Shown here piece by piece: positions 7,690 through 32,682 of a stretch of DNA of 64,000 nt (position 1 is the stretch's first letter; each line of letters begins with the position of its first letter). The stretch spans positions 744,001 to 808,000 of the forward strand of contig JAYXKI010000012.1 of assembly GCA_037892935.1 (NCBI GenBank). The letters are read 5' to 3'. This stretch comes from Phlebopus portentosus. Taxonomy: Eukaryota > Basidiomycota > Agaricomycetes > Boletales > Boletinellaceae. The position numbers and the translations under genes were made by a program. Under the pieces are notes generated by a model that was not told where the DNA came from, ran no database searches, and was given only the letters and a program-made list of their open reading frames with translations.

Positions 7690-7690
7690 T

Positions 7691-12500: not shown

Positions 12501-13402
12501 TCCTCCACATTGAAGGCAACCCATCGACAGCGTATCACCCACAAACTGACGGACAGACAGAGCGGGTTAATCAGGAACTAGAACAATACCTGCGGCTATA
12601 CGTCAACCATCGGCAGTCGGACTGGGCGGACTGGCTAGCTCTCGCAGAATTCGCATACAACAATCGTGAACATTCAGCGACGAAGCTATCTCCCTTCTTC
12701 GTCAATACAGGAATGCACCCCTTAGACTTCACGGGGGTTGGAACGGCATCATCGAACCTGTCAGCAGAAGAATTTGCCAAACATGTCAAGGAGGTGCACG
12801 AACTCGCTCAAGGTAACCTAACCCAAGCAAACGAAGACATGAAGCGTTTCTACGACCGCCATGCTGGGAAGTCCATTACCTATGAGGCAGGACAGAAAGT
12901 CTTCTTAGATGGACGAAATATCAAGACGATCCGACCGATGAAGAAGATGGATGATAAATGGTTCGGTCCCTTCGAGGTAGTGGAAAAGGTTGGCGCAAGC
13001 GCATACAGACTCAAACTACCGAAGACCTGGAAGAAGGTCCATCCAGTTTTCAACGAGATCTTGCTCAAACCAGCCGTCCAACCGTCCTTCGAATCGCAGA
13101 AGAAACCACCTCCACCACCGCCAGTGATCATTGATGAGCAGAAAGAGTACGAGGTTGAAGAAATACTCGACTCGCGTCTGCATCGAGGCAAACTCCAATT
13201 CCTGGTCAAGTGGGTTGGATATGAGGAAGCGACTTGGCAGCCAGAATCCGACGTCAAGGATAATGCGCAGGAGTCAATTCAAGAATTCTACCGCAAACAT
13301 CCTGGAGCTCCAAGGAAGTTAACGATACCTCGACAAAGCCTGCGAGCGCTGTACAAGTTCACGTCCTCAGAAGGCTTATCTGGTTGGTCGGGACGCCCAA
13401 CC

Positions 13403-13417
13403 TTGAAGGGGGGGTGA
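13403..13417 (+). other. Polypurine tract of chromovirus 1
   Basis: A run of TTGAAGGGGGGGTGA directly precedes the 3' LTR at 13418 and overlaps the last codons of pol. Such purine runs prime plus-strand synthesis. Confidence 0.8.
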
Positions 13418-13875
13418 TGTAAGGACTCGAACATTTTCCTTTTCTTTTCTGACGTCATCATTTATTTTAATATTCTTTTTCTTTTCTTTTATTTTTCTTA
13501 TGTGCTTATTCATCCTTTTGCCGGAACATTCCACAATGTTCTATCACGCTCACTAATCATCCCATTCCTTGTCATGTGACTTCCCATTAGGGTAGACCTT
13601 TCCCACGCTCAAAGTCTATATAAGTAGATAGTTTGACTCTTTCGTTCCTTGTCTTTCTATTCTACTTACCTTCACTTTGACATAGGTATCTACTCTTGTA
13701 TTAATAGTTTACTGAATTCTACTTACCTTCACTTTGACATAGCGTTCGACGGTCTGGACTTAAGCCTTGTCTTAGCTGTCTTGACCTGAGCGACGTATTT
13801 GGGATTATCTCATTCGCGCTTGTTTGTTATTGTGTTGGCCTGCCTCGACTCAGTCCTTGAGCCGTCCGCCTAACA
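13418..13875 (+). repeat. 3' LTR of chromovirus 1
   Basis: 458 bp, followed by the target duplication TGGAG at 13876-13880. It keeps the CpG form at three of the four positions that differ from the 5' LTR. Confidence 0.95.
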
Positions 13876-13880
13876 TGGAG

Positions 13881-15062: not shown

Positions 15063-16525
15063 TGTTAGGACCGGCGTTTTCAGACGAGGTGGCTAGTCCG
15101 AGCGTACCGGAACAAGTCCCTGCTTCCTCCTTCTGACAATGTGTGATTGGAGAGTATAGTAGCAAAGGTTAGATGTACTACTTAAGAAGCGAGCTATAGG
15201 CTCAAGCTTAACTTAGCAGTAGAGCAGAGGTTCAATTAAAGGGGTACAGTTATGATTGAAGGTACAAAATAATTTTGCTGAGGGACAACACCCCGCTCAG
15301 CTGGCGCCTTAAATAAAGTTTCTACTGAATACTACCGACTACCAAATACTACCGACCCTGCCTCGCCATTGGTTAGGACAATATGTTTCAGCTGGTTTCA
15401 CCACCACTTTCTTGCGTCGGTGGTACTACTGACAACTCTGGTGGTGCTACCAAAACTCCTGGTAGCACCACCGCCTACTCCCTTCCCAATTAGGCAGGCC
15501 CTATTCTTCCTCCGTTCCGAAGAAGCTTCCCCATACTTCTATCAATCTCCATTCCTATCACATGTTAATCCTTAACGCCAATCCTCCCACGAGAGACTTC
15601 TTTCCTGTGCCGCGATCTTGCTTCGCCGGCGCTTCGTTACTCCGGCCGAGCTTCTGCCGTTAGTCTTCCATCATGGGGCTGACCGTTATTTCGGGATTCG
15701 GGATCGGCAACCCCTGCCGATCTTTGGAGATTAACCTTGGCAGCTGTGTAAACTTGGCAGATACCCTTCTATGCCTTGCTGCTATATCGATGTCGGAGAA
15801 TTGTAGTCCAGTTCCCGACGTTAACCTGTATCTTCTTCCCAGGTGATTTGTCTCATGCCATTCGTCGACTGTAATAACCCCTTCTTCCGATCGTTCCCAT
15901 GCTTCTAGCATTCGATCTGTTGCTTCATCGATAAGACTTTCGACGTCCGATGGTGCCGACCAATATATTGGCCAATCGACTTCCACTGCAGTGTTTCGAC
16001 AGAGTGTCTGGTGACGATGCTGATTGATCCAAGCTCTCACGCAGACCTTCAGTGCATAGATGTCTCTATCGGTGAGCCATACTGATACCTCATGATCGTA
16101 TGCGCTCATTCCGCGGTTCGGCATTGGTTGGTCAAACATTCGTTCCGAGGGTCCAGGCTTATGTCGAATCTTGACATCGGCTGCCTCCCTGGTTACTAAG
16201 CGCTCCACAAAGTTCTTGAGGAGCCACTCCGAAAGAACCCAACTCCTTTGGTATGCCAAATAGCAGTTTGCACAGACCAGGCCTTCGTGAACAAAGCGTC
16301 TGGTTGCTCCTCGTCGATATCGCCTCTTCTGCAGGAGTTCTACGTATCTTGCGATGTTCCGTTCTTCCATGTCCACGTAGCTTCTCTCGGGTGGAGGAGT
16401 GTGCCCGATATGCATTCTAGCTAGTCCTTCCTGCAAATCGTATGGGTCCTCCCTCTCGTCACATTCGTCTTCGTAATATCGTCGATCGGGTTCCTCTTGC
16501 ATATCTTCCACAGCGACCTCCCCAG
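15063..16525 (-). repeat. Older solo LTR of the chromovirus 2 family (larger part)
   Basis: Antisense LTR whose other end is 29153-29299; chromovirus 2 is inserted in it. Subtracting one CCCAG copy, the two parts total 1,605 bp, exactly the length of the chromovirus 2 LTRs. It is flanked by GGGGT at 15058-15062 and 29300-29304. It is clearly diverged from the young LTRs, yet its internal ORF is still open. Confidence 0.9.
15660..16525 (-). CDS. U3 ORF of the older solo LTR (5' codons lie at 29153-29275)
   Basis: Same unknown protein as 27572-28555, here in an older, diverged LTR. From GEVAVED to the stop the frame has no stop or frameshift. By hand, about 22 of some 286 residues differ from the young copy. 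In the last 164 codons I count about 23 synonymous codon changes against 10 replacements. That excess of silent change is what selection on protein sequence would leave. The CX2C pair (CANC) and the KPGPSER and YDHEVSVWL blocks are conserved. No promoter of its own is evident. Confidence 0.7.
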
Positions 16526-16549
16526 TGTTACGAAAATTGTGGATATACA

Positions 16550-17533
16550 ATGCGGCGTGGTATCAGACGCTTTACACACCGAATTATGCAGCCCAATCCA
16601 GAGCATTTCGAAAGGCTTCAAGGACAGAATAGTGGAGACGATTCTCGCCCACTAGTACAGCAAGGACCTGGGGAGGTCGCTGTGGAATATATTCAAGAGG
16701 AACCCGATCGACGATATTACGAGGACGAACGCGACGAAAGGGAGGACCCATACGATTTACAGCAAGGACTAGCTGGAATGCATATTGGACATACTCCTCC
16801 ACCTGAGCGAAGCTATGTGGACATGGAAGAACGGAACATCGCAAGATACGTGGAACTCCTGCAGAAGAGACGATATCGACATAGTACAACCAGACGCTTT
16901 GTTCATGAAAGCCTGGTCTGTACAAACTGCTATTTGGCATACCAAAGGAGTTGGGTTCTTTCGGAGTGGCTCCTCAAGAACTTCGTGGAGCGCTTAGTAA
17001 CTAGGGAAGGAGCCGATGTCAAGATTCGGCATAAACCCGGACCCTCAGAACGAACGTTTGACCAACCATTACCGAACCGCGGAATGAGCGCATACGACCA
17101 CGAGGTATCTGTATGGCTCGGCGATAGGGATATCTACGCACTGAAGGTTGGCGTGAGAGCTTGGATCAATCAGCATCGTCACCAGACCTTGTGTCGAAAC
17201 ACTGCAGTGGAAGTCGATTGGCCAATCTATTACAGGGCGCCATCGGACGTCGAAAGTCTTATCGAAGAAGCAACAGATCGAATGCTAGAAGCATGGGAAC
17301 GATCGGAAGAAGGGGTTATTACAGTCGACGAATGGCGTGGGACGAATCACCTGGGAAGAAGATACAGGTTAACGTCGGGTACCGGACTACAATTCTCCGA
17401 CATCGATATCGCGGCTAGGCACAGAAGGGTGTCTGCTAAATTTACACAGCCGCCGAGGTTAATCTCCGATGATCGGCAGGGGTTGCCGATCCCAAATCCC
17501 GAGATAACGGTCAGCCCCATGATGGAAGACTAA
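16550..17533 (+). CDS. U3-encoded ORF, 5' LTR copy (unknown protein, 327 aa)
   Basis: Identical to 27572-28555 (described there). In this LTR the frame also stays open upstream into the interrupted older LTR (to 16442), which is accidental. It lies upstream of the LTR's own TATA box (17879), so this copy is not expected in the element's genomic RNA; the 3' LTR copy is. Confidence 0.7.
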   Translation: MRRGIRRFTHRIMQPNPEHFERLQGQNSGDDSRPLVQQGPGEVAVEYIQEEPDRRYYEDERDEREDPYDLQQGLAGMHIGHTPPPERSYVDMEERNIARYVELLQKRRYRHSTTRRFVHESLVCTNCYLAYQRSWVLSEWLLKNFVERLVTREGADVKIRHKPGPSERTFDQPLPNRGMSAYDHEVSVWLGDRDIYALKVGVRAWINQHRHQTLCRNTAVEVDWPIYYRAPSDVESLIEEATDRMLEAWERSEEGVITVDEWRGTNHLGRRYRLTSGTGLQFSDIDIAARHRRVSAKFTQPPRLISDDRQGLPIPNPEITVSPMMED

Positions 17534-17878
17534 CGGCAGAAGCTCGGCCGGAGTAACGGAGCGCCGGCGAAGCGAGATCGCGGCACATGAAAGAAGTCTC
17601 TCGTGGGAGGATTGGCGTTAAGGATTAACATGTGATAGGAATGGAGATCGATAGAAGCCTGGGGAAGGCTTCTTCGGAACGGAAGGAAATTAGGGCCTGC
17701 CTAATAGGGAAGGAAGTAGTCGGTGGTGCAACCAGGAGTTTCGGTAGCACCACCAGAGTTGTCAGTGGTACTACAGACTCAAGAGAGTAGTAGTGACACC
17801 AGCTGAAACATATTGTCCTAACCAATAGCGAGGCATGGTCGGTAGTATTTGGTAGTCGGTAGTATTCAGTAGAAACTT

Positions 17879-17925
17879 TATTTAAGGCGCCAGCTGAGCG
17901 GGGTGTTGTCCCTCAGCAAAATTAT
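17879..17925 (+). promoter_or_regulatory. LTR promoter of chromovirus 2: TATA-like box and transcript start
   Basis: TATTTAA at 17879-17885. The sequence matching the primer-binding site, AGCAAAATTAT, starts at 17915, 36 nt from the first base of the box, and is the predicted RNA 5' end. The same spacing is seen in chromovirus 1. Confidence 0.65.
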
Positions 17926-18132
17926 TTTGTACTTTCAATCATAACTGTACCCCTTTGATTGAACCTCTGCTCTACTACTGGGTCAAGCTTGAGCCTATAG
18001 CTCGCTTCTTAGTAGTACATCTAACCTTCGCTACTCTACTCTCCCATTATACATTGTCAGAAGGAGGAAGCAGGGACTTGTTCCGGTACGCTCGGACTAA
18101 CCACCTCGTCCGAAAATACTGGTCCTAACATT

Positions 18133-18143
18133 ATAATTTTGCT
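18133..18143 (+). other. Self-priming primer-binding site of chromovirus 2
   Basis: ATAATTTTGCT, two bases after the 5' LTR, is the exact reverse complement of AGCAAAATTAT at 17915-17925. This is the same logic as at 7691-7701, with an unrelated sequence. Confidence 0.75.
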
Positions 18144-18199
18144 CCAATCCTGGGATAATCAATCTTGCTGTTTCATAGTGCAATACCCACTATCGATCA

Positions 18200-18253
18200 G
18201 TAAGTATTGCTCTGCCCTGGGAGGGTTTCTTCTATGCCTGTTAATACAATTAG
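18200..18253 (+). other. Candidate leader intron with a short upstream ORF
   Basis: A consensus donor GTAAGTATT at 18200 and acceptor CAATTAG at 18253 define a 54-nt intron, a typical length here. It contains the only ATG (18234, seven codons) between the predicted RNA start and the ATG at 18696. Splicing would therefore remove the upstream ORF. An alternative acceptor at 18268 also removes the TAA at 18265. Confidence 0.4.
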
Positions 18254-18267
18254 CTGATCATCGATAA

Positions 18268-19185
18268 GCGTATCGTCGACGGCTAAAGCAGGCTTACACA
18301 CTCCATCGGAGTTTTGTTAGAGCGCTCCATATATTCGAGGAAGAAGTCAATTCAGCGTTTCGCACGATAAACTTCTATCGAGGTAAGAAGCACTCAAACA
18401 CCCCTATCCTAGAACCCTACCGGTCGGTTATACTATCCGCCCTGGAGCTTCGAATCAACGCCGAAAGACACGAAAGAGTTGGGAGGAAGTTCTTGCTTGT
18501 ACACGCGGACAACCTATTGAACGGACACAGTTCTAATTGGGAGGCACTCAGAGGTCCTACGCCGGTTGAAGAAGAACTACTCGCTCTGTGTCAGGAATAT
18601 AAAGCGTTCGAATACACCTTACTCGAACATTCTCATTTCCTCCATCAAGTCCTGTTACAAGTTTATCAAGGCAACTATACTACTGCGAAACAACTATGTC
18701 ACCGATGGAACTGTGGCAAGTTGGTTGGTCTAGTCTCTGGTTTACACTCTGCATCGTCTGGTTTTCTTCCTTGGTATACGTCATTGCTCAACAACTCCGA
18801 GGTCGAATCAGCCTTCTTCGAGGCTTTAGAACGCTATGGACGTGGGTGGAACGGCAAGACAACGAAAGAAGTTCCCCATTCCGTCGTGCCGGTCGGAGAT
18901 TTCTACTCCAAACTCAACGACTGGCAGTTCCTCAACCCGGACCTGGAGAACGTATGGAATCCGCTCTGGCACGTATCAGCGAACGACTCGACAGTCTACA
19001 CGGACGCTTGGACCGAATGGTCAGTACTGACGGGCAACCCAACCAAGTTGTCTCCGCCCTGCGACACGCCGTCATCGACCTCGACAATCGACTTACTAGC
19101 GTTGATCGGTCCCTCAGAACTCTCACAGCTACTGTTGCTCGACTCTACGACATGGGCTCTCAATACTCCGAGAACCTTACCGTAG
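18268..19185 (+). CDS. Pre-gag open frame without ATG, overlapping the next ORF
   Basis: Open for 306 codons in a frame without a usable ATG. The first part (18268-18690) reads as ordinary protein: RSFVRALHIFEEEVNSAF, then ILSALELRINAER, VEEELLALCQEYKAFE and HFLHQVLLQVYQG. The last 490 nt overlap the ATG ORF at 18696 in the neighbouring (-1) frame, and there the other frame looks more credible (coiled-coil). It could be an upstream exon or a -1-shifted front end of the 18696 protein. No similarity was recognised. Its function is unknown. Confidence 0.4.
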   Translation, partial: AYRRRLKQAYTLHRSFVRALHIFEEEVNSAFRTINFYRGKKHSNTPILEPYRSVILSALELRINAERHERVGRKFLLVHADNLLNGHSSNWEALRGPTPVEEELLALCQEYKAFEYTLLEHSHFLHQVLLQVYQGNYTTAKQLCHRWNCGKLVGLVSGLHSASSGFLPWYTSLLNNSEVESAFFEALERYGRGWNGKTTKEVPHSVVPVGDFYSKLNDWQFLNPDLENVWNPLWHVSANDSTVYTDAWTEWSVLTGNPTKLSPPCDTPSSTSTIDLLALIGPSELSQLLLLDSTTWALNTPRTLP

Positions 19186-19829
19186 AAGGACAGACACTGG
19201 GGGAGTTTCTGGCACATATTCAGGGACATGTCGGGGATGCGATCGCCGAGGCAGTCATCACCAACCTCAGGCGAGAAGGTGAACAGCGAGACGTACGGAT
19301 CAACTACGCGTTCGGTATTCTTCAGGCTCGTATTCTGGGAGCGGTAACAATGGCCATTCAGGGCAGTCAGTCAGCCCTTGCTCAACAAGTGGTCAACTCC
19401 CAGCAAGAGATTATTCGGCTCACTGGTACGGACTTCCTGCAGTTACACACGCAGGCTAGCTACCTGGTCGAACAGGTTGAGGCTATTCGAGCCCGGATCA
19501 GCAATGCCGAGGAAGAACTCGTGGCCCAGTACTCGATCACGGAAGGCATTCGTCGGATTCAACAAACGATTAGGCTTCGTCAATCCTACCTGACGCAGCG
19601 AGCCAGGCGAGGAAGGGCGAGGTTGAGCCCTGACTCCCCGCTGCAAGGTAGAGGCCTAGGTCTAGCCAGCCGCTTCGAAAGCGTGAGCTCGGACTCCGAC
19701 GACGACCAGATGCCTCACCTGATCCCAGCAAGTGAACGCTTTGTGGATCAGATGGTTGAGATCATTCGCCAGAGCAGGGAACCTGAAGGAACGGACACTC
19801 GAACAGGACAACCGTCGTCGCAGTTGTGA
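18696..19829 (+). CDS. Pre-gag ORF: predicted membrane-anchored coiled-coil protein, 377 aa
   Basis: Starts at the first ATG after a leader of about 780 nt that has only one other ATG. Residues about 12-32 are strongly hydrophobic and aromatic (WSSLWFTLCIVWFSSLVYVI) and are followed by arginines, as in a signal anchor. Residues about 85-290 form heptad-rich helices (ARISERLDSLHGRLDRM, VVSALRHAVIDLDNRL, YLVEQVEAIRARISNAEEEL). The tail is basic, then acidic. The ORF stops at TGA 19827-19829, but the same frame continues open to 20603. No homolog was recognised, and standard chromoviruses have no ORF before gag. The arrangement recalls an accessory structural or membrane protein, but no role can be assigned. 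Confidence 0.6.
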   Translation: MSPMELWQVGWSSLWFTLCIVWFSSLVYVIAQQLRGRISLLRGFRTLWTWVERQDNERSSPFRRAGRRFLLQTQRLAVPQPGPGERMESALARISERLDSLHGRLDRMVSTDGQPNQVVSALRHAVIDLDNRLTSVDRSLRTLTATVARLYDMGSQYSENLTVEGQTLGEFLAHIQGHVGDAIAEAVITNLRREGEQRDVRINYAFGILQARILGAVTMAIQGSQSALAQQVVNSQQEIIRLTGTDFLQLHTQASYLVEQVEAIRARISNAEEELVAQYSITEGIRRIQQTIRLRQSYLTQRARRGRARLSPDSPLQGRGLGLASRFESVSSDSDDDQMPHLIPASERFVDQMVEIIRQSREPEGTDTRTGQPSSQL

Positions 19830-20603
19830 CAGCAGGCAGTAGAAGTTGGAAGGAACTATGTCGCTGAGGTAGTTGCGGAACGAGGGCTGGTAGCACCTAC
19901 TGTGCTCGCCCAAGAGGAACAGGAAGTCGAAGGAAGCATCGAAGTTGAAGAAGATCTCCCGGACTACGTCTCCACAGAAACGCAACCCGGAAGCCTGGAC
20001 CAGCAAGCAGAAGAACTGCTGAGGGAGGTGATTCCCGAGTCACCACAGCCCTGGCCACCCAACGACGGATGGGGACCGCCTCCCGATGCTGGGGAAGCAT
20101 GGGAGGCGGACAACACGGCGGAAACGGGTTATGGCACGGGAATCCGGGAGCTCATGTGGAATGAGCAGGGAGAACTCGTCGAGGGAGCGATTCAACGGCT
20201 GGGATGGAATGGCCACTACGTCGAAAGGAACCACATTCAATACCCGCACCAGGACTCGCCGCCAGGATCGCCTACTCCAAGTGCTCTTGAGCTTGAGGAG
20301 AGAGAAGCAAGGCTCCAGGCGGTCAGTGAGTACTCCCCAGACTCTGATTATATCTATGATCCTATCATTCGTCCTAACAGCTGCCCTATACCATCGGTCT
20401 TTCTCGACATACGAGAGGAACCACCGAGGCAGGGGGTAGCAAACATGGCGATGGTAGTTTGGGTGCGAGGTAACAATGTAGAAGAGCCAACCAGCGAGGA
20501 TCAAGAGTACTTCGATGCGAACGACGAATGGGAGACAGAAGAGGAAAGCGAGGAACACGAAAGCGGTGAGGAACGATACGAAGCTCGGGAAGAAAGGAGA
20601 TAG
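19830..20603 (+). CDS. Acidic continuation of the pre-gag ORF after a single TGA
   Basis: Same frame as 18696-19829; open from the codon after TGA to a stop at 20601-20603. There is no ATG near its start, so expression would need readthrough (the context is TGA CAG), splicing or a start further inside. It is rich in Glu, Pro and Asp (IPESPQPWPPNDGWGPP, DEWETEEESEEHESGEER) and probably disordered. Because the LTRs are identical, the TGA was probably present in the parent that transposed. CGA to TGA decay remains possible. Confidence 0.5.
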   Translation, partial: QQAVEVGRNYVAEVVAERGLVAPTVLAQEEQEVEGSIEVEEDLPDYVSTETQPGSLDQQAEELLREVIPESPQPWPPNDGWGPPPDAGEAWEADNTAETGYGTGIRELMWNEQGELVEGAIQRLGWNGHYVERNHIQYPHQDSPPGSPTPSALELEEREARLQAVSEYSPDSDYIYDPIIRPNSCPIPSVFLDIREEPPRQGVANMAMVVWVRGNNVEEPTSEDQEYFDANDEWETEEESEEHESGEERYEAREERR

Positions 20604-20800
20604 GCCCTGGTTTAGAGCTGGGAGCTTGCCAGGAGGAAGAAAGACGCCCAAGAACCGACCGGGGAGGAAGGGTAAGGTGGCTAGTTGGAAAGCGGAGGTG
20701 GTACTCGCTGGATAACTTAGCTACTAAACCATGTATTATTGTAATGCGCTGAATGAAGGTGATACTCATAAAAATGTTGGTTGAATTTGTCTAGGTCATT

Positions 20801-21823
20801 ATGTCAAACAAAGATATCATGAAGTATCCCTTGTTTAAGGGAAACCCTTATGAGTCGCTTGAGAACTTCCAGAATCAAATGATCAGCCGGTTGAATGAAA
20901 AACATCCGAGCGACCCAGTCAAGAGGGTTAAGATTATTTTGGAATGTCTGCGAGGTCAAGCTCAGACTTGGGTTAATGGCAAGTGGGCCGTGAACAGAAA
21001 TCAATTAGTCTCCACCTACAAGCGAGATGCGGATGGCAAGCTTGTTATGGACAAGAAGGGTGGATGGGACAGCGAGGACGATCTATGGAACGAATTAGCG
21101 CTCAACCACAATGGCATTTTTGGACTTCAAGAAGAAGCCGAGCGGAATATTAGGACGATTTATCAGGAACGGGCGCGGGTGAAGCAGTATAACAGGGCCT
21201 TTGACGACATTAGGATAAGGTTGCCAAAGCACTACGATCATCAGGCACTGATTTACGAGTACAAGAGAGGACTCAATCAAACCATCCTAAAAGCCCTGCT
21301 TACGAATACAGACCACCCAGAATGGGACCTGAACCAATGGAAGGAGAACGCTAGTAATCTGGAGGCCAGTCTGATGGCTGCCAAAGTGATAGGCAGCAAT
21401 AGGAAGTACACCCCTATGTTTAAAGATGGGCAGGCAGTATCGTACACGCCAGTGCCCCCAGAAGCTCGCCGTCCAGCTGAGTTTCTGGGTGAGCCTATGG
21501 ACATCGACATGTCTAGGCGCTTTACTAGGGGGTCCCGAGGAGATGCCGGGATATGCTGGGCATGCGGCAAGACAGGTCACTTCGCACGGGACTGCAATAA
21601 TGTAGGGCGAGACACACAGGGAAGCCGTGGACACCGAACCAACTACAAGAGACGGGTGCAGAAGAAACGATCTGGCAAGACTGGCCGCTTCCTAAAACGC
21701 CGGGAAGTTGGGATTAGCAGCGATTCTGAAATGGAGGAACTACTGGACAAGAAAACGAAGTTACCAAGGCGTAAGGAACGGGCTTCGTATGCCCTCGAGG
21801 AGGATTCCGAGGAGGATTTTTGA
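20801..21823 (+). CDS. gag: Gag of chromovirus 2, 340 aa
   Basis: ATG at 20801, just after an acceptor-like TTTGTCTAG, so a spliced message is possible. The N-terminal half is capsid-like (FKGNPYESLENFQNQMI, ILECLRGQAQTWVNGKW, then RTIYQERARVKQYNRAFDDI). A single zinc knuckle CWACGKTGHFARDC follows, then a basic and acidic tail. The TGA at 21821-21823 follows a -1 slip site. Gag assembles the particle and binds the genomic RNA. Its sequence is only distantly like the chromovirus 1 Gag, so the two elements belong to different lineages. Confidence 0.92.
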   Translation: MSNKDIMKYPLFKGNPYESLENFQNQMISRLNEKHPSDPVKRVKIILECLRGQAQTWVNGKWAVNRNQLVSTYKRDADGKLVMDKKGGWDSEDDLWNELALNHNGIFGLQEEAERNIRTIYQERARVKQYNRAFDDIRIRLPKHYDHQALIYEYKRGLNQTILKALLTNTDHPEWDLNQWKENASNLEASLMAAKVIGSNRKYTPMFKDGQAVSYTPVPPEARRPAEFLGEPMDIDMSRRFTRGSRGDAGICWACGKTGHFARDCNNVGRDTQGSRGHRTNYKRRVQKKRSGKTGRFLKRREVGISSDSEMEELLDKKTKLPRRKERASYALEEDSEEDF

Positions 21824-24800
21824 AGGGCCGCCAGTCAACATCGGACACTGGCGAGGGCTCGAAGGATACACAAGAGATAAAGCGCCGATGGACTATTGCT
21901 AGACCAAACTCCAACCATCCCACTATACCCATTGACGTCATTCAGGGACAGAAAAAGGTTAATCTCTCGGCTATGATTGACTCCGGATCTGCGATCACTA
22001 CTATTAGCCCCATGGTTGTACAGAGCCTAGGGCTGAGAACAGTGCCTGCAGAAGGTAATTATACCATCCGGAATGCAGATGGATCGATTAATCATGGTGG
22101 ATGGACTCGGAACGTCAGAGCAATAGTGGACACAGGGATTACAAGAGGTTTAATGGACATCGCAGTGGTGGATACACACGAGGACAAGTTTCTCATAGGA
22201 AATGATTGGCTTGAACAGCATAAGCCAACTATCGACTGGACAAAGGGGATTCTTCGCAAAGGCGGGAAGGAAATTGCATTTAATGGAACAGCACGATTGC
22301 GTTCCATACAGCTAATCCTAGCCCCAAGGAAGCTCCGGAAACGCAGAAGATGGCGAAGAATTCCAGACTACATTCCACCCGAATGGGATGCCGATGATGA
22401 AAAGGAAGAAGCTTGGGAAACTAGGGTCTATTACCACAGCGACATCGAAACAGGACAAGAAACCGAGAAGGAAGACATAGAAGAAGAACCTACGATCGTA
22501 CCACCAGACAAAGGAAAAGAAAAGGAATCAGCAGCACCGCTTGTCACGTTCGAAGAAGTCATGCACGAGCCGCCAAAACTCTCCTTCGCTAAGCAAGAAG
22601 GAAGATGGAAATTCTTTTGGTTCGGGGACAAGTGCCGAATAACGAAGGACGATCAAAACTGGCACAACTTTAACAGTCTCGAGGATGCAGATGGTGCAGT
22701 ATACCGCACCATGGTCAGAGAAATGGACAAGGGCGCCAAACATGATGAACTCCTCGATGAATATGGCGGCATGTATATGGCGCGTCTTCAGCTGATAGCA
22801 ATTCAGGGAGGCCTGGGAACAACGACCTCACCAACAACATCTGAAGACCAAGCAAGAGTGCGGGAAGAAATACAGGCACAAATGACAATCGACGCAGAAG
22901 GATCTGATACGAGTAGAAGGAAGAAGCCTAGTGTACCACCTAAAGGAGGAAAGCCTGGACACTACGCACCTGATCCTCTCAAGATGCGTCGACAGAAGAG
23001 CGGAGGAAGTGGTACGGATTCAAACCCTGTCATAAGGAGTATAAGGGTGGAGTGGACTCCTCCATCCGTGCACGAGGACCACAATGACTCAACCCTGGCA
23101 GTGCAAAAGCAGTCGGTAAGCTTCACCACACGAAGCAGAGGTACAAGCAGGAGTACTTCGGGTCGGGAGCGCCGTGGAACTAAGGCCACGAAGCGTACTA
23201 GGTTCGGCCACCTAGCGAGAACTCCTCCTACGAAAAACCGAGGAGTGACTAGACATGAGACGCCGTTCAAGGGTAGGCTAGTGTCTAGGAAAGTGGTCCA
23301 CCCCAAAGGGAGGGTAGTCCCACTCAATTGGCACAGGGCCGAAGTTAGTACGCCGCAATCATCAAGTAGGCTAGCTTCGGGAGCTCAAGTGCGCCCGCGA
23401 AGACCACGGTTTAAGAACCAAATGCAGGGCCCTGCTCCGACAGGGAAAACAAACGGTAAAGGTAACAGGTTCATTTCGAATTATGCCGTGATGGAGCAGG
23501 AGCTCTCGCAGGGGCAAAAGAGGCGCCGATGGCGCACACCTGTTGACTCGGTCATGCAGCCGCCCAAAGTGGAAAGAAAAGTGCTAGAGAGAAGAGCTGG
23601 ATCTGAGACGGAGTTCAAGGGTATCCTAGGATCGCACAAGCCTGCTACCTTAGGGGAAGCAGAGGACACCTCTCGAAGAGGAGAGCCACCCAAACCTCCT
23701 CACTGGATCCGCCGCCTAGAGCATCGACAAGTCGCATCACGGAGAGAACGCCTTCTCAAGTACAACAGCATAGCTCAAAAATATGCACAAGAGAAAGCAC
23801 TCGATGAAAGGATGGCAGGCTCTGCTGGCAACAAATCTCTCGAAGACATTCTTCCAAAACAAATATGGGAGTTCAGGGATAGGTTCGACAAGGATGCTGC
23901 TAAGCGGCTACCTAAGTCGGGACAATGGGACATGAAGATCGAGCTCCTACCAGGAGCAGAGCTCCCGAAACCTGGACCGGTATATCCACTCGCTCCTGCT
24001 GAAAAGCGAGCGGTAGAAGAATGGATTCGCGAGGACCTGAAGAAGGGATGGATTCGTGTTGTAGGAAACCGAGTACCAGCTGAAGAAAAGGCGAACACTT
24101 GCGCACCAGTATTTGTCATAGCCAAGAAGACAATAGGGAAGGATGGCAAGCCGGAGTATAGGATTGTTATCGACTATAGAGGACTGAATGCGGTGGTCAT
24201 TCCAGACCACCAACCGATGCCTCTGTTACATATGCTCCCGGACGATCTTGCGCATGCCAAATGGTTCTCGACACTGGATTTGCGAAGTGGGTATAACAAC
24301 ATTCGAATACACCCTGGGCACGAGAAGTATGCCGCCTTTAGGACTCACATGGGAGTATACCAGCCGATGGTAATGCAGTTCGGATTAATGAATGCACCTG
24401 CGGTATTCCAACGTGCAATGAACGAGCTCTTTCAGGACATGATTGGGCAGGGCATACTCATTTATCTTGATGACATTATAGTCTATGCGGAAACGGAACA
24501 GGAACATTGGGACCTGCTAGCAGAGGTATTGCGCAGGTTAAGGGAAGCAGACTTCTTCTGCAAGCCAGAGAAGTGCTACTTCGGAAAGAAGGAACTCGAC
24601 TATCTAGGATTTGTGGTTAATCAGTCGGGTATGCAGATGGATCCCTACAAGGTAAAGGCGGTTCAAGAATGGCCAGATTTGTCAAGCAAGCGAGACATTC
24701 GAAAGTTTATCGGTTTTGCAAACTTCTACCGGAAATTTATCGAAGGCTTCGCCAAGATCGCTAGGCCATTAACGGAACTTATGTCTGGCAAGAAGACATT

Positions 24801-27111
24801 TACCTGGGGAGAACGGCAACAAGAGAGCTTTAGAAAACTTAAAGAAGCTTTTACCACTGCACCAATGCTAGTACGACCGGATCACGAGAAACAATTTGTG
24901 CTGGAAACCGACGCGTCGAACTTTGCGATGGGAGCCGTGCTCTCGCAGCTTGGGAACGATGAAATTTTGCACCCTATTGGATATTGGTCAAACACCTATC
25001 GAGATGCCGAGAATAACTATCCAGTAATGGACAAGGAATTACTAGCGATTGTCAAGGCCTTGAGCAATTGGAGGCACCACTTGGAAGGAGCTAAACATGA
25101 GATTCGAGTGGTTAGCGATCAAGCTAACCTTCGATATTTTATGGGAGCTAGGAAGCTAAGTGGCCGCCAAGCAAGATGGGCGACATTTCTCAGCAGATTT
25201 CGATTTCGAATCGAGTATCGACCTGGAACCAAGAATTCACGAGCAGACGCATTATCAAGAAGGCCAGACTACGAACAGGGCCAAGAGGACCAGCCAGAAC
25301 AAGTCCTACTTCCTCCGCAATTGTTCAGAACATCGGACCTGCCTATGCGCACGGTACGGGTATTTGAGCTTACAGGGGGTCCAGAACTGGGAGAGAAGAT
25401 TCGAGACGCCTATGAACGATCCAAAGAGCCAGCAATCGGAACGTTCGAAGAAGGATATTGGTGGAAGGATGATAAATTGGTTATCCCACCGGATGAAGAA
25501 ATTAAGAAGGAAATTGTACGACAGTGCCACGACGCACCGGCGTCAGGACACCCGGGGTTACAGAAGACTATAGACAAACTGGAAAGAAGAGTTTGGTGGC
25601 CGAAGATGAGGGAATGGGTCGAAGAATACGTGCGCACATGCGACGTGTGCCAGAGGACGAAAGCGCGACGAGGAAAGACGCAACCACCGCTGCAACCATT
25701 GCAGATAGCGACAAGGCCCTACGACGAGATTACGATGGATTATGTCACCGGACTTCCAACAACGAGCAAAGGAAACAATGCGATACTAGTGGTGGTAGAC
25801 AGGTTCTCTAAGATGGGAACTTTCATACCTACTACAGTAAATGCAAACTCGAAGACCACTGCGGATTTAATGATCAATTATGTCTACAGTAAGGTCGGGA
25901 CTCCGAAGACAGTGATCAGCGACAGGGGACCTCAGTTCGCTAGCCGGTTTACAGAACAGGTGAACCAGGCCCTCGGGATCGAAACAAAGCTTAGTACGGC
26001 GTATCATCCACAAACGGATGGTCAAACGGAGCGAGTAAACCAAGAAATGGAACAGCTGTTACGTTGCTATTCCAGCTTGCAGCAGGACGACTGGGACGAA
26101 CATTTGCCTATGGCAGAATTCGCCTATAACAGTCGCTCTCACTCCAGTACAGGAAAGACGCCATTCGAATTGGTGTATGGATTTCAGCCGGAGTTAGGAT
26201 TCAAGCTTCCGATCCGAGGAACTCAAGACTATGTGGCTATGCGAAAGAAGAATCAAGAAGAAGCAACAAAGGCGCTGGAGAAGGCACGAGACGCGATGAA
26301 AAGATTTGCAGATAGACACCGAGGCCCGATGCCATCGTTCGAAATTGGCGATAAAGTTATGTTAGATGGTCGGAATCTAACCTTGCTAGTTCCTACGAGG
26401 AAGCTAGGGGATAGAAACCTGGGACCTTATCAAATTATCGCGAAGCATGGGCTAGTCAACTACGAGCTGGATCTCCCGAAGGAGTTGAGGATCCACCCGG
26501 TGTTCTACGCAGGACTATTAATTCCCTATCGAGAAAGGAAAGATCCGGCACAGAGAACAAGACCACCACCAGAAGTTATCGCTGGAGAAACCGAATACGA
26601 GGTTGAAGCGATCCGGGATATGAGGAAAAGGCACGGAAAATGGGAGTATCAGGTTAAATGGCTCGGCTACCCGGAGGAAGAGAATACCTGGGAACCTGTG
26701 GAAGGGCTGCGCAATGCCCCAGAGAAATTGCGAGAGTATCACGAGAGGAATCGTTGGCCGGACACGATAGATCTTCCCTCTAGAAAGAAGATCGCGGATA
26801 TTATAGACTCTACGCAGAGAGTAATCGACATCAAGAAAGAAGATGACGAGTTCCTGAGGACGGCACTAGGAGAGTCCGTAGCTCAGAAGGTAATCAAGAG
26901 AAGAAGATACCAGAGCAAGACAGGTATCAAGCAGCGGGATTTCGGTTATCCGGAATGGCACAAGCGTCATTGGAGAGCCGCGAAAAGGCCATTCACTCGA
27001 AACAAAGCGCTGCCGGTTCGCAGATGGGATCTGCCAGAAGAGAAAGGGGATCCTGCATACAAGGATTGGTTTTGGGCTGACTCCTCGGATAGTGAGTACA
27101 GCGAGGCTTAG
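21775..27111 (+). CDS. pol: Pol of chromovirus 2, intact, with a large protease-RT insert and chromodomain
   Basis: Open throughout. Residue numbers count from codon 21820. Protease IDSG with Asp54; RT with YRIVIDYRGLN and YLDD at 882-885; RNase H Asp1031 (ETDASN), then the DALSRR end; integrase zinc site from His1237 to CDVCQRTK; core Asp1307, Asp1368, Glu1404 (D-35-E). The chromodomain is at about 1592-1645 (EYEVEAIRDM, YQVKWLGY, NTWEP), followed by a basic tail of about 115 residues. The chromodomain normally steers integration to modified chromatin. Unusual is a stretch of about 500 residues between protease (ending near 160) and RT (starting near 679), rich in Arg, Lys, Ser and Pro and absent from chromovirus 1. 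All catalytic residues are present. Confidence 0.95.
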   Translation, partial: GTGFVCPRGGFRGGFLKGRQSTSDTGEGSKDTQEIKRRWTIARPNSNHPTIPIDVIQGQKKVNLSAMIDSGSAITTISPMVVQSLGLRTVPAEGNYTIRNADGSINHGGWTRNVRAIVDTGITRGLMDIAVVDTHEDKFLIGNDWLEQHKPTIDWTKGILRKGGKEIAFNGTARLRSIQLILAPRKLRKRRRWRRIPDYIPPEWDADDEKEEAWETRVYYHSDIETGQETEKEDIEEEPTIVPPDKGKEKESAAPLVTFEEVMHEPPKLSFAKQEGRWKFFWFGDKCRITKDDQNWHNFNSLEDADGAVYRTMVREMDKGAKHDELLDEYGGMYMARLQLIAIQGGLGTTTSPTTSEDQARVREEIQAQMTIDAEGSDTSRRKKPSVPPKGGKPGHYAPDPLKMRRQKSGGSGTDSNPVIRSIRVEWTPPSVHEDHNDSTLAVQKQSVSFTTRSRGTSRSTSGRERRGTKATKRTRFGHLARTPPTKNRGVTRHETPFKGRLVSRKVVHPKGRVVPLNWHRAEVSTPQSSSRLASGAQVRPRRPRFKNQMQGPAPTGKTNGKGNRFISNYAVMEQELSQGQKRRRWRTPVDSVMQPPKVERKVLERRAGSETEFKGILGSHKPATLGEAEDTSRRGEPPKPPHWIRRLEHRQVASRRERLLKYNSIAQKYAQEKALDERMAGSAGNKSLEDILPKQIWEFRDRFDKDAAKRLPKSGQWDMKIELLPGAELPKPGPVYPLAPAEKRAVEEWIREDLKKGWIRVVGNRVPAEEKANTCAPVFVIAKKTIGKDGKPEYRIVIDYRGLNAVVIPDHQPMPLLHMLPDDLAHAKWFSTLDLRSGYNNIRIHPGHEKYAAFRTHMGVYQPMVMQFGLMNAPAVFQRAMNELFQDMIGQGILIYLDDIIVYAETEQEHWDLLAEVLRRLREADFFCKPEKCYFGKKELDYLGFVVNQSGMQMDPYKVKAVQEWPDLSSKRDIRKFIGFANFYRKFIEGFAKIARPLTELMSGKKTFTWGERQQESFRKLKEAFTTAPMLVRPDHEKQFVLETDASNFAMGAVLSQLGNDEILHPIGYWSNTYRDAENNYPVMDKELLAIVKALSNWRHHLEGAKHEIRVVSDQANLRYFMGARKLSGRQARWATFLSRFRFRIEYRPGTKNSRADALSRRPDYEQGQEDQPEQVLLPPQLFRTSDLPMRTVRVFELTGGPELGEKIRDAYERSKEPAIGTFEEGYWWKDDKLVIPPDEEIKKEIVRQCHDAPASGHPGLQKTIDKLERRVWWPKMREWVEEYVRTCDVCQRTKARRGKTQPPLQPLQIATRPYDEITMDYVTGLPTTSKGNNAILVVVDRFSKMGTFIPTTVNANSKTTADLMINYVYSKVGTPKTVISDRGPQFASRFTEQVNQALGIETKLSTAYHPQTDGQTERVNQEMEQLLRCYSSLQQDDWDEHLPMAEFAYNSRSHSSTGKTPFELVYGFQPELGFKLPIRGTQDYVAMRKKNQEEATKALEKARDAMKRFADRHRGPMPSFEIGDKVMLDGRNLTLLVPTRKLGDRNLGPYQIIAKHGLVNYELDLPKELRIHPVFYAGLLIPYRERKDPAQRTRPPPEVIAGETEYEVEAIRDMRKRHGKWEYQVKWLGYPEEENTWEPVEGLRNAPEKLREYHERNRWPDTIDLPSRKKIADIIDSTQRVIDIKKEDDEFLRTALGESVAQKVIKRRRYQSKTGIKQRDFGYPEWHKRHWRAAKRPFTRNKALPVRRWDLPEEKGDPAYKDWFWADSSDSEYSEA
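21814..21820 (+). promoter_or_regulatory. -1 frameshift heptamer directly before the gag stop
   Basis: GGATTTT reads G GAT TTT in the gag frame and is followed at once by TGA. After a -1 slip, the pol frame (open from 21775) continues with TTG AAG. A GGAUUUA site of the same type is the established pro-pol shift site of mouse mammary tumour virus. Confidence 0.65.
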
Positions 27112-27536
27112 GAAGGCCTAGTTATTTGACCTGAATAAGTCGTTAAACTATTCCTAGCATGTTGGGAAGCATCTAGTATGTTGGAAGCCGACACTCAGCG
27201 AGGCTTTGAATTATTGAGCAAGCGTCACGTGACCGCCGCCTTTCTCTGAGAACAGGTTGAGCGTCAATCACGTGATTGCCACCCTCTCATCCAAACAGGA
27301 AGTGTTTAAGTCACATGACTGCCGCACTTTTGTTCAGACGGGTTGTGCGTCAGGTCACATGCTCAATAATGAGTGGAGGACTCTGGATGTACAGTGCTAC
27401 AGTTATTCCAGACAAGAGGAATGAGACACTAGTATACAAGAAGGATCTGGTCTAGGAAGCAACAATACGAAACAGCAAGATTATGGCTACCACAATTAAG
27501 GGATCCACACTCTCCTTGCAGTCCGAAGTGGATCTT
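27112..27536 (+). other. Spacer between pol and the 3' LTR of chromovirus 2
   Basis: About 425 nt without a credible ORF. It contains repeated TCACGTGA/TCACATGA-like E-box hexamers (CACGTG near 27226 and 27269; CACATG near 27311 and 27356). These could be chance or a regulatory cluster. Confidence 0.35.
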
Positions 27537-27547
27537 AAGGGGAGGAA
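27537..27547 (+). other. Polypurine tract of chromovirus 2
   Basis: AAGGGGAGGAA directly before the 3' LTR. Confidence 0.8.
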
Positions 27548-29152
27548 TGTTACGAAAATTGTGGATATACAATGCGGCGTGGTATCAGACGCTTTACACA
27601 CCGAATTATGCAGCCCAATCCAGAGCATTTCGAAAGGCTTCAAGGACAGAATAGTGGAGACGATTCTCGCCCACTAGTACAGCAAGGACCTGGGGAGGTC
27701 GCTGTGGAATATATTCAAGAGGAACCCGATCGACGATATTACGAGGACGAACGCGACGAAAGGGAGGACCCATACGATTTACAGCAAGGACTAGCTGGAA
27801 TGCATATTGGACATACTCCTCCACCTGAGCGAAGCTATGTGGACATGGAAGAACGGAACATCGCAAGATACGTGGAACTCCTGCAGAAGAGACGATATCG
27901 ACATAGTACAACCAGACGCTTTGTTCATGAAAGCCTGGTCTGTACAAACTGCTATTTGGCATACCAAAGGAGTTGGGTTCTTTCGGAGTGGCTCCTCAAG
28001 AACTTCGTGGAGCGCTTAGTAACTAGGGAAGGAGCCGATGTCAAGATTCGGCATAAACCCGGACCCTCAGAACGAACGTTTGACCAACCATTACCGAACC
28101 GCGGAATGAGCGCATACGACCACGAGGTATCTGTATGGCTCGGCGATAGGGATATCTACGCACTGAAGGTTGGCGTGAGAGCTTGGATCAATCAGCATCG
28201 TCACCAGACCTTGTGTCGAAACACTGCAGTGGAAGTCGATTGGCCAATCTATTACAGGGCGCCATCGGACGTCGAAAGTCTTATCGAAGAAGCAACAGAT
28301 CGAATGCTAGAAGCATGGGAACGATCGGAAGAAGGGGTTATTACAGTCGACGAATGGCGTGGGACGAATCACCTGGGAAGAAGATACAGGTTAACGTCGG
28401 GTACCGGACTACAATTCTCCGACATCGATATCGCGGCTAGGCACAGAAGGGTGTCTGCTAAATTTACACAGCCGCCGAGGTTAATCTCCGATGATCGGCA
28501 GGGGTTGCCGATCCCAAATCCCGAGATAACGGTCAGCCCCATGATGGAAGACTAACGGCAGAAGCTCGGCCGGAGTAACGGAGCGCCGGCGAAGCGAGAT
28601 CGCGGCACATGAAAGAAGTCTCTCGTGGGAGGATTGGCGTTAAGGATTAACATGTGATAGGAATGGAGATCGATAGAAGCCTGGGGAAGGCTTCTTCGGA
28701 ACGGAAGGAAATTAGGGCCTGCCTAATAGGGAAGGAAGTAGTCGGTGGTGCAACCAGGAGTTTCGGTAGCACCACCAGAGTTGTCAGTGGTACTACAGAC
28801 TCAAGAGAGTAGTAGTGACACCAGCTGAAACATATTGTCCTAACCAATAGCGAGGCATGGTCGGTAGTATTTGGTAGTCGGTAGTATTCAGTAGAAACTT
28901 TATTTAAGGCGCCAGCTGAGCGGGGTGTTGTCCCTCAGCAAAATTATTTTGTACTTTCAATCATAACTGTACCCCTTTGATTGAACCTCTGCTCTACTAC
29001 TGGGTCAAGCTTGAGCCTATAGCTCGCTTCTTAGTAGTACATCTAACCTTCGCTACTCTACTCTCCCATTATACATTGTCAGAAGGAGGAAGCAGGGACT
29101 TGTTCCGGTACGCTCGGACTAACCACCTCGTCCGAAAATACTGGTCCTAACA
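27548..29152 (+). repeat. 3' LTR of chromovirus 2
   Basis: 1,605 bp, identical by eye to 16526-18130, followed by CCCAG (29153-29157). Confidence 0.95.
27572..28555 (+). CDS. U3-encoded ORF, 3' LTR copy (unknown protein, 327 aa)
   Basis: Begins 25 bases into the LTR and fills most of U3, upstream of the TATA box. As it lies downstream of pol and inside the transcribed 3' U3, it would be a 3' accessory ORF of the genomic RNA, 460 nt after the pol stop. The protein is highly charged with no membrane segment or signal peptide. Recognisable pieces are YVDMEERNIARYVELLQKRR, a CX2C pair (LVCTNCYLAYQ), RHKPGPSER, YDHEVSVWLGDRDIYALKV and a C-terminal LISDDRQGLPIPNPEI. No family was recognised. Mouse mammary tumour virus Sag is an established example of a U3-encoded protein; that analogy concerns position only. 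Confidence 0.7.
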   Translation: MRRGIRRFTHRIMQPNPEHFERLQGQNSGDDSRPLVQQGPGEVAVEYIQEEPDRRYYEDERDEREDPYDLQQGLAGMHIGHTPPPERSYVDMEERNIARYVELLQKRRYRHSTTRRFVHESLVCTNCYLAYQRSWVLSEWLLKNFVERLVTREGADVKIRHKPGPSERTFDQPLPNRGMSAYDHEVSVWLGDRDIYALKVGVRAWINQHRHQTLCRNTAVEVDWPIYYRAPSDVESLIEEATDRMLEAWERSEEGVITVDEWRGTNHLGRRYRLTSGTGLQFSDIDIAARHRRVSAKFTQPPRLISDDRQGLPIPNPEITVSPMMED

Positions 29153-29299
29153 CCCAGGTCCTTGCTGTGCTAGTGGGCAAGAATCGCCTCCACTATTCTG
29201 TCCTTGAAGCCTTTCGAAGTGTTCCTGATTAGGCTGCATGATTCGGTGTGTAAAGTGTCTGATTCCACGCCGCATTGTATATCCACAATTTTCGTAACA
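29153..29299 (-). repeat. Older solo LTR, first 147 bp (split from 15063-16525)
   Basis: Reverse complement of the LTR start: ends CGTAACA at 29299, then target duplication GGGGT. Contains the ATG region of the older U3 ORF. Confidence 0.9.
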
Positions 29300-30298: not shown

Positions 30299-31430
30299 CT
30301 ATACAAGCACATCATAGCGACAGTGGCGAAAGAAGGAATAACTATCCAAAGAATTAATGGAATACACCTGCCTGCAGAGTTGCTCAACAACTGAAGTGTC
30401 ATCCTGAGGACCGGGACCCTGCCGTTTTAACCTGGACTTGATTACGGAGAATGCAAGTTCAATAGGATTGTAGTCTGGTGAGTAAGGAGGAAGAAATTCA
30501 AGCCTGACACCCCTAAGCAAAGGGGTCAGTACATGCTGCAACTTGCATTGCTAGTGAGACAGACCGAGATTCGATAAGCTCCCAAATCTTGGGAGCCTTG
30601 TGTATTGGGCAGTTGTCCATTACAATGACTGATTGATTACTGGGGAAGGGATGCATTTTGTCCAACAGGCTGGCGATGAATTCCGTGAACAATTTGATAT
30701 TGAATGCGCCCTGTACGATAGTGCAGTCGATTGTCCCATTGAGGCTGATAGCTGGCAAGACGGAGAAGCTAACGGAGTGAATCAGAAGCTTGTGACGTGC
30801 CACAAGAGGCAGAATCACCATTTCCCCCTATTGAAAAACTGCTTGCGACACGCACGGTGACCCTCAAGGGCCCAAGCAGTGTTGCGAAGAAAAGCCTGCC
30901 GATCGCAAGCACTCTCATCGATAAATAGCTATTCCGCTGTGTACTGAGAGGTAATACGTGCGACGTACTGCATACGCAGAGTTTCATTCCGCTCGAGAGC
31001 CCTTTTCGATAACTAGACCACAACGATTTCAGTTCGCGTGGACTGCGTGGGGAAGCAAAGCGACAGAGACAGCCATCTTCTTAAGTGTGAAACCAGCACA
31101 CAGCAAGGACCTGCATATAGTCACATCCGAAGCCTCCTTCTCCCATCTTTCCTGGAGCAGTAGCCTCAACTCGTCAATGTAATGGTCATTGAGATTGCTT
31201 AGTGACCCGAAAAGCAACTACGTGGTGTGAACCAACAGCTACCAGGACAGGTTTCAACATGTGCATACCTCAGTGTGGATATAATCAAGCACTCGAGGCC
31301 TTCCACGAAAACCAAGTTCATGCGCAGCAACAGTCCCATTGCGCTTGAACTCTCGTATTATCCAGAAAACTGTTGTCTTGGGTATGTAGGTCAAGGCTGC
31401 GATCTGAGAGGCGCTGAGTTTCTTGTTCAT
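30299..31430 (-). pseudogene. Tc1/mariner-type DDE transposase, copy 2, nearly intact
   Basis: Exon 1 (31430-31269) encodes the helix-turn-helix; a 51-nt intron 31268-31218 (GTATGC...GTAG) follows in phase. Exon 2 carries NLNDHYIDELRLLLQERWE. The next donor, GT in copy 1, is AT here (after FTLKK), which would impair splicing. Downstream come LFIDESACDRQAFLRNTAWAL, a 50-nt intron before FSVLPAISL, VMDNCPIH, a short intron, then LEFLPPYSPDYNPIELAFSV and a complete C-terminus ending at 30299. All three acidic positions of the DDE fold appear to be present. Function would be strand cleavage and transfer of its own ends. The donor change makes it doubtful that this copy is active. Confidence 0.7.
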
Positions 31431-32530
31431 AGTGATGATGCATTCCCGTAAATCGTTGGACAGCTGTCTGCCATGTCGCCGGGGTTGCATGAATGAATGC
31501 TCAACATAAGCTGTAGAGATGGTGACTGTGAAGATGGTGATGGCTCGAGATCAAGTGGCGACTCGACACGTGAGTTAACCCCTTCATCCTCACATGCGTC
31601 GCTGCTCCTATCTCTTTGCCGTGGTGCCTCATCTCTCATGATGGTCCGTCCCCAGCAACTGGAGGTTCCCTCATGCCTGTAGGTGATGAGGGATTGGTGA
31701 GGATGAGGAGGGAACTGTGGACAAGTGATGAGAGCTGCTGTGCAGGGAGATACTGCATACGAAAGACTACCATCGTGTGTGTACACTCATGTTTCTCTGA
31801 GAGATGTTTCTGCGGCCCTGGCAGACACACTCGGTTTGGTTGTAGCAGGAGTGCATGATGGCTGAGCTGACCTTGTTCGCCCTTGCCCAGATATGATTTT
31901 GGGTGACATTTCAGCAGAGGATGGTCACCGAGGTGGTTTCAAGTCTGATTGGTAGATAGTACATGTAATGTAGCTACACCCAAGCCTAACTCAGCTCAGC
32001 TACTGTCTTGGCTGAAAGCGCCTATGCTGCTGTCTTTTTAGCAGAAACAATCAGATTTTTTAGTGTCCGAATGCGTGAGTTATGACAGATGCAATGAAGT
32101 AGGGGAGAGTTCTGCGAGCAGGAGTGACAACAAACCACCCAGTTTCACTACCACAATCATGTCAGGGAGCCTTGAGGAGTTGCGTACAGGTGCCCACTGG
32201 GCTGGCCTGATTTATCAAACTTGAATCAGATTTTTCCGGATGACGTTGGGCAAGCTATGATTTTTACACTGAACGGAGGGCATGACAAGGATTTAGCACA
32301 ATGATGCTATCTTTTTAGTAGCGAAGTACATACTCAACAAAACCCAGACATTTTTATATGTACTGGAGCGCATTTTCGAGCAGGTTTTTTACATGGTTAT
32401 ATCAGATTTTTATGTGCTGTATTGACTGAGATATTTGCTATTTTGTTTTTTTTTGCTCATCCAGGATGCACTATGCGTCAAAAATACACGTGATTTTCCA
32501 AATTGCCAACAATTTTGCAATTAGCTGTAA
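30299..32530 (-). mobile_element. Tc1/mariner-like DNA transposon, copy 2
   Basis: Inverted relative to copy 1. The region from about 32530 (AT-rich end with AATTTTGCAATTAGCTGTAA) through the transposase matches 35-2149 closely, and this copy has the transposase 3' end. A second TTTTGCAATTAGCTGTAA lies at 32792-32809, same orientation, so the true element end may be beyond 32530. The other end was not found. Confidence 0.7.
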
Positions 32531-32682
32531 TGTGCAATATTGAGTGAGCAATTGGCCATTTTGTTCATTTTTGCCTTTCGAGAGCATGACACAAGTGAAA
32601 AATCATGTGATTTTGGCTTTTCTCATTACTTTTGCAAATGGCTATAATAAAAGCCCTTTCAAAGAGATGAATTTAGCAACTT

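Follow-up and report, generated by a model that had tools for sequence, protein, structure and literature searches.

Retrotransposon long terminal repeats (LTRs) are treated as non-coding: insertions are dated from them on the assumption of neutral evolution, and annotation masks or skips them. In the consulted passages of a survey of retroviral LTRs, mouse mammary tumor virus (MMTV) sag, lentiviral nef and an antisense HML8 ORF stand out as clearly beyond chance (PMC2664473). The MMTV U3 ORF, which encodes Sag and Naf, has a separate promoter, P2, that is used in B cells (PMC9412291). Among plant and fungal LTR retrotransposons, the accessible part of one account describes additional ORFs (aORFs) in Athila, Bagy2, Grande, Retand and Boty; these extra conserved genes beyond gag-pol are internal to the elements, in most cases located between pol and the 3′ LTR, and none is described there in an LTR (PMC7264820). 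The accessory gene of maize Grande is antisense, has its own promoter, and encodes a nuclear protein (PMC7264820). Retrosat2, RIRE3, and RIRE8 have long LTRs and an additional ORF0 ahead of gag-pol, with no mention of an LTR ORF in the consulted portion of the source (PMC3485330). In Tj1-type self-priming, the primer binding site (PBS) anneals to the start of the RNA made by the element itself; the sections consulted mention no U3 ORF for the fungal elements Tf1 and Tj1 (PMC4600332). In the literature searched, which covered few subscription papers, we found no Ty3/Gypsy or Copia element with a protein encoded in its LTR. Apparent mentions of LTR coding proved, in the records seen, to be non-LTR ORFs or whole elements, and the Sanghuangporus genome literature contains no mention of a U3 gene at the level of its listings.

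We analyzed a 64-kb stretch of fungal DNA (the window), in which a full-length element spans positions 16526-29152 (Table 1). The element is a Ty3/Gypsy chromovirus, with the order reverse transcriptase (RT), RNase H, integrase, a chromodomain, and a zinc knuckle in gag. The Pfam families above cut-off in pol were RVT_1, RT_RNaseH_2, Integrase_H2C2, rve, and Chromo. A 5-bp target-site duplication, CCCAG, flanks this young element, which interrupts an older, minus-strand solo LTR of its own family. The older LTR has a 5-bp duplication of its own, GGGGT, and 0 stops across the 327 codons, in line with the first-pass annotation, which had described it as independently inserted with its frame open. 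The window also holds a second Ty3/Gypsy-like element (7232-13876), with gag and pol frames recognized by eye and 459-bp LTRs (7232-7690 and 13418-13876) that are 99% identical. A 2.1-kb inverted repeat (52-2147 and 30431-32531, 97% identical), whose first arm is without an ORF of at least 150 codons, brackets both retrotransposons.

Table 1. Positions in the window of the features of the element and of the older solo LTR
Feature	Position	Strand	Remarks
Older solo LTR, LTR bases 143-1605	15063-16525	-	U3 frame open
5′ LTR	16526-18130	+	Identical to 3′ LTR over 1,605 bp
U3 ORF copy in 5′ LTR	16550-17533	+	Identical; upstream of the element's promoter
Self-primer copy in 5′ LTR	17915-17925		
Primer binding site ATAATTTTGCT	18133-18143	+	Exact complement of the predicted RNA 5′ end
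Donor-like GTAAGT in leader	18200-18205	+	Unchanged in 12/12 elements; putative splice site
Second donor-like site GAG/GTAAGA	18383-18388	+	Unchanged in 12/12 elements; putative splice site
Leader ORF upstream of gag	18696-20603	+	635 codons in relatives
gag	20801-21823	+	Zinc knuckle (zf-CCHC); Retrotrans_gag slightly below cut-off
pol	21820-27111	+	RT, RNase H, integrase, Tf2-1-like SH3, chromodomain
Four TCACRTG boxes	27225, 27268, 27311, 27355 (27225-27361)	+	Spacing 43, 43, 44 bp; candidate internal promoter/enhancer
Acceptor-like CTCTCCTTGCAG	27510-27521	+	Putative splice site
Polypurine tract AAGGGGAGGAA	27537-27547	+	
3′ LTR, TGTTA...TAACA	27548-29152	+	1,605 bp
U3 ORF in 3′ LTR	27572-28555	+	LTR bases 25-1008; 327 codons + TAA
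TATA-like box TTTATTTAAGG	28899-28909	+	LTR 1352-1362; by eye; downstream of U3 ORF
Predicted 5′ end of R, self-primer AGCAAAATTAT	28937-28947	+	LTR 1390-1400; 11-nt PBS complement
Older solo LTR, LTR bases 1-147	29153-29299	-	Separated from the rest by the young insertion

By eye, no tRNA-type primer binding site adjoins the 5′ LTR. The PBS is complementary to 11 nt at the predicted 5′ end of the element's own RNA, so the element appears to be self-priming and Tf1-like, and it shares this complementarity with Tf1 and Tj1 (consulted sections of PMC4600332). The match places the probable RNA start at LTR base 1390, about 30 nt downstream of the TATA-like box, and thus U3 at LTR bases 1-1389. 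TTTATTTAA of the TATA-like box was present in all 83 LTR copies that we compared, the self-primer was exact in 81, with its last base altered in the other two, and the PBS was unchanged in the 12 aligned elements.

With R starting at about base 1390, the U3 ORF, which starts 24 bp into the LTR, would lie wholly within U3; it does not occupy the position between pol and the 3′ LTR of plant-type 3′ aORFs and env-like ORFs. The first-pass annotation had reported identical LTRs, each with this 327-codon frame upstream of a TATA-like box, and both observations held. A second in-frame ATG stands at codon 13 (27608), and a start there gives 315 codons. Both ATGs have an A at -3, and both, together with the TAA, are kept in 83/83 copies. 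Among 35 copies, the ORF showed just two indels, one element having lost 9 bp and the stop-codon region having gained 1 bp; the 621 bp of non-coding LTR had 12 indel events, none a multiple of three. ORF indels do occur, since two of 40 full-length matches in a DNA-ranked list were 989 and 985 bases long.

These copies came from a genome of 38.4 Mb in 23 contigs, in which our protein searches scored 122 and 129 places from 242 and 235 first-look candidates. The 83 analyzed LTR copies fall into 60 groups, of which 23 are pairs at element spacing. Most copies came from the protein-ranked search, which biases the set towards intact frames, and 46 of the 98 listed copies, mainly lower-ranked, fell outside the analysis. 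Duplicate loci (L001-L008 and L039-L045) and L098, which contains N bases, were dropped before counting, as was a 13,594-codon "open frame" at C14:909997, a stretch beside N bases. Within-pair counts used 15 of the 27 same-strand pairs at 8-14 kb: five were identical and added nothing, L031/L032, L031/L034, L035/L046, and L049/L067 were not at element spacing, and L019/L053, L025/L052, and L049/L066 were excluded despite element spacing because their differences resembled those of separate elements and likely reflect exchanges. Two family LTRs, L034 (C13:1005842), which is without its last ~150 bp, and L024 (C13:1007298), lie head to tail, perhaps as a recombination product.

To see how the frame has changed, we sorted variants in the 83 copies by the number of elements sharing them. 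Variants in at least four elements comprised 75 silent, 36 replacement, and one stop change, with substitutions at codon positions 1, 2, and 3 numbering 18/14/85. Single-copy variants comprised 31 silent, 76 replacement, and four stop changes (codon positions 49/35/42). The silent:replacement/stop ratio thus differed between shared and singleton variants (75:37 versus 31:80; Fisher p = 5.6e-9), and variants in two or three elements were intermediate (62 silent, 57 replacement, three stop). In the DNA-ranked subset of 39 copies, the contrast persisted in weaker form, at 48:15 for variants shared by at least two elements (one stop omitted) versus 60:52 for single ones (p = 0.0035); the lone old LTR in this subset accounts for part of the weakening. 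As shared changes are mostly silent and singletons are not, the U3 frame has the marks of a real gene, held by purifying selection as long as the element replicates and subject to near-neutral decay once inserted.

We derived a neutral spectrum from non-coding LTR changes, within pairs and among singletons. CpG transitions exceeded other transitions about 10-fold per site, and the CpG-aware neutral expectation was 2.16 replacement/stop changes per silent change. Observed/expected ratios were 0.14-0.32 for the window copy versus 11 others, 0.74 within the 15 element pairs (48 silent:77 replacement), and 1.20 for singletons. Over LTR bases 25-1008 of further copies, omega between elements is therefore about 0.14-0.32 and not about 1. 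With the three excluded pairs included, the within-pair counts become 81:90 instead of 48:77, a ratio of about 0.5 relative to neutrality, and some within-element pairs, such as L011/L023 (6:2), do not look neutral. The IQ-TREE GY codon model gave an omega of 0.258 for 24 stop-free copies. NG86 values ranged from 0.06 to 0.17 when the window copy was compared with 13 others; for eight pairs the range was 0.09-0.84, a ninth being undefined for want of silent changes. RT pieces of three other elements had silent:replacement/stop counts of 26:7, 41:4, and 38:6; the U3 gene is clearly constrained, although less so than RT. Where the two LTRs of an element differ, the change is mostly a CpG transition (103/129 in the ORF and 32/47 outside), which suggests methylation-linked decay.

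The window copy and the older solo LTR differ by 48 silent and 27 replacement changes over the whole frame. Our recount matched the earlier figure of about 22 replacements over some 286 residues (22 over 286 codons) and, for the last 164 codons, gave 25 silent:11 replacement where about 23:10 had been counted. The main frame did better than both other frames in every ORF segment tested. Its first 35 codons (LTR 25-129) are weakly constrained, with 11 silent and 10 replacement changes. Two upstream ATGs were considered. The frame of ATG 27483 reaches the same stop uninterrupted in 80 of the 83 copies, but given its shared changes over LTR 25-129 (3 silent:18 replacement) we do not regard it as coding; the frame of ATG 27547 stops at differing positions.

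Among 5.8 billion proteins, single-sequence and profile searches with the U3 protein matched only three proteins, all from Sanghuangporus: a hypothetical protein of S. sanghuang (97% identical) and two of S. vaninii (65% and 63%). The profile search, a check suggested in the first-pass annotation, scored the 7,993 candidates sharing most words and added nothing beyond these three. The S. sanghuang protein differs from the closest analyzed copy at 7 of 315 residues. In S. vaninii, identity is 29/30 over residues 121-150 and 32/90 over the N-terminal 90 residues, the first 12 being absent there. The S. vaninii tags ACEPAH_3246 (P0004, a relative of the U3 protein) and ACEPAH_3244 (P0006, a relative of the leader protein) are near-adjacent. 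From these tag numbers we infer the leader, gag-pol, and U3 ORF of one element, so the S. vaninii relatives probably sit in an element of the same layout. Together with these second-species relatives, the shared/singleton and between/within-element contrasts and the maximum-likelihood omega of 0.26 strongly support the purifying selection on the U3 protein that had been proposed.

By eye, the U3 protein has an arginine-rich KRRYRHSxTRR, a CxNC (CxxC) at residues 124-127, and an HRHQTLC (HxHxxxC) at 209-215, motifs that would suit a nucleic-acid- or metal-binding regulator. A sequence search of the PDB gave no match at E <= 10. The best Pfam match was DUF7419 (E = 0.1); that of P0003 was DUF1570, below cut-off. 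The AlphaFold2 models were poor (mean pLDDT 37 and 47), and Foldseek, queried with a poor model, returned 0 matches in the PDB at E <= 0.001, so we assign no fold. No homolog of known function was found in Pfam, the PDB, or the 5.8 billion proteins.

Compared with the described systems, the U3 gene resembles MMTV Sag/Naf in being a sense ORF in U3, likewise placed in the 5′ third of the LTR, and differs from the antisense HML ORFs, which are without a start methionine (both comparisons with the consulted passages of PMC2664473). Like the aORFs, it is an extra conserved gene beyond gag-pol, and the promoter of its own that we propose below would be a further likeness to Grande (PMC7264820, accessible part). 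The leader ORF recalls the extra ORF before gag-pol of Retrosat2, RIRE3, and RIRE8 (PMC3485330, consulted portion). The U3 gene shares with lentiviral Nef that a 3′ accessory protein is coded at least partly in U3. The start of Nef precedes the LTR; here, the whole sense gene is inside it. No relation of the protein to Sag was found by sequence or, with the poor model, by fold, and its bearer is a fungal chromovirus rather than a retrovirus. Superantigen activity would not be expected in a fungus. What appears to be new is that U3 coding, known in retroviruses, now extends to a fungal Ty3/Gypsy chromovirus, although absence from the literature is not proof of novelty.

Very probably, the U3 of this family carries a genuine gene of 327 (or 315) codons, selected and then decaying; expression from the 3′ LTR, action in trans, and a promoter in the gap between pol and the LTR would complete this reading. 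Could the frame instead have arisen by chance in a non-coding LTR and be open because the copies are young? Many copies match the LTR of the window element at 97-100% identity, and although 68 of the 83 are stop-free in this frame, the other 15 contain TGA or TAG, the four more diverged copies L092-L095 among them; many lower-ranked copies outside the set have one to several stops, some of them TAA. However, three copies about 8% diverged (L089, L090, and the solo LTR) are stop-free, as are the others of L087-L091 and L096. In a first-order Markov simulation of 5,000 LTRs, the longest ATG-initiated ORF in six frames had a median of 79 and a maximum of 233 codons, and none reached 327. The frame also has 65% identical relatives in S. 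vaninii, and 85 of 117 shared substitutions fall at third positions. In our view, this codon-position pattern refutes a chance frame, to which we give almost no credence. It is also very unlikely that the gene serves the host, as a captured or domesticated gene that spread in LTRs and whose host copies are selected. Solo copies may be common, as 37 of the 83 copies have no partner LTR within the set, but the three Sanghuangporus proteins are the only relatives in the search, inserted copies decay near-neutrally, and selection is visible on the shared changes of replicating lineages.

How would a gene in U3 be expressed? The copy in the 5′ LTR lies upstream of the promoter, whereas that in the 3′ LTR is within the transcribed unit. 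The four TCACRTG boxes in the 436-bp gap between pol and the LTR were all kept in 12 of 13 aligned elements, the second box being altered in L021; over the whole window, TCACRTGA occurred 10 times versus 5.7 expected, which is no excess, as 13 of 100 shuffles reached 10. By eye, no TATA box was seen in the gap. The segment just before the LTR is conserved among the 13 elements: one of 38 columns varied in 27510-27547, and four of the last 65 columns varied, versus 30/83 and 31/81 in the two preceding stretches. Our best guess is an internal promoter in this gap, marked by the spaced boxes; MMTV with its P2 and maize Grande are earlier examples of accessory genes driven by promoters of their own (PMC9412291, PMC7264820).

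A spliced subgenomic mRNA, joining a leader donor (18200 or 18383) to the acceptor at 27521 in the manner of env, nef, and sag of complex retroviruses, would also reach the frame. Both donors are unchanged across the aligned elements, and so is the acceptor-like sequence in 13/13, within the conserved segment before the LTR. That conservation may, however, stem from the needs of the polypurine tract, the donors could belong to short introns, and no clear branch site was seen by eye beside the acceptor. An intron as long as 9 kb would be most unusual for a fungus, and we consider this route rather unlikely. A short intron ending at 27521 was rejected, as no conserved donor was seen by eye within the gap. 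The first-pass annotation had favored the genomic RNA, or a transcript started outside the element, as the source of the protein. The 3′ U3 is necessarily within the genomic RNA, and the A at -3 of both ATGs would suit readthrough or internal initiation there, or translation of an RNA from a flanking promoter. However, more than 9 kb of the genomic RNA, including the leader ORF, gag, and pol, comes before the frame, and initiation from the 5′ end would presumably miss it; we consider this unlikely. Plain genomic RNA and an outside-started transcript are no more plausible than an internal promoter in the gap or splicing onto a site just before the LTR.

With an internal promoter as the likeliest route, a short mRNA would be transcribed from the gap that holds the TCACRTG boxes; its first long reading frame would be the U3 ORF, and its 3′ end would fall in R of the 3′ LTR. 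The source of the protein would be the ORF copy in the 3′ LTR, which belongs to the transcribed part of the element, and the protein may act in trans for the element. Its role is a guess; one speculation is a small regulatory protein that acts on its own LTR or on host silencing.

The U3 protein had been proposed as a third protein of the element. An accessory protein from U3 stands, but its rank does not: the leader ORF also looks coding, making it at least the fourth. In the window copy, the leader ORF has a single in-frame stop (19827-19829); it is open in an element on contig C19, from which it differs by 42 silent and 33 replacement codon changes, a coding pattern. A possible membrane segment was seen by eye at its start, and in one search, relatives of the leader protein were found only in Sanghuangporus. 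Tentatively, and with the odds against it, one might suppose that this metavirid lineage independently evolved a retrovirus-like complex genome, with a leader gene and a U3-encoded trans-regulator that targets its own LTR or counters CpG methylation by the host. If so, an intact solo LTR would be a complete mobile gene acting on the family in trans.

A selected 327-codon gene in the U3 of a high-copy fungal element means that the LTR itself can be a gene and that solo LTRs can be gene copies. Where dating between elements relies on coding LTRs, silent and replacement sites need separate treatment. A fungus is now at hand in which the function of a U3-encoded protein can be tested.
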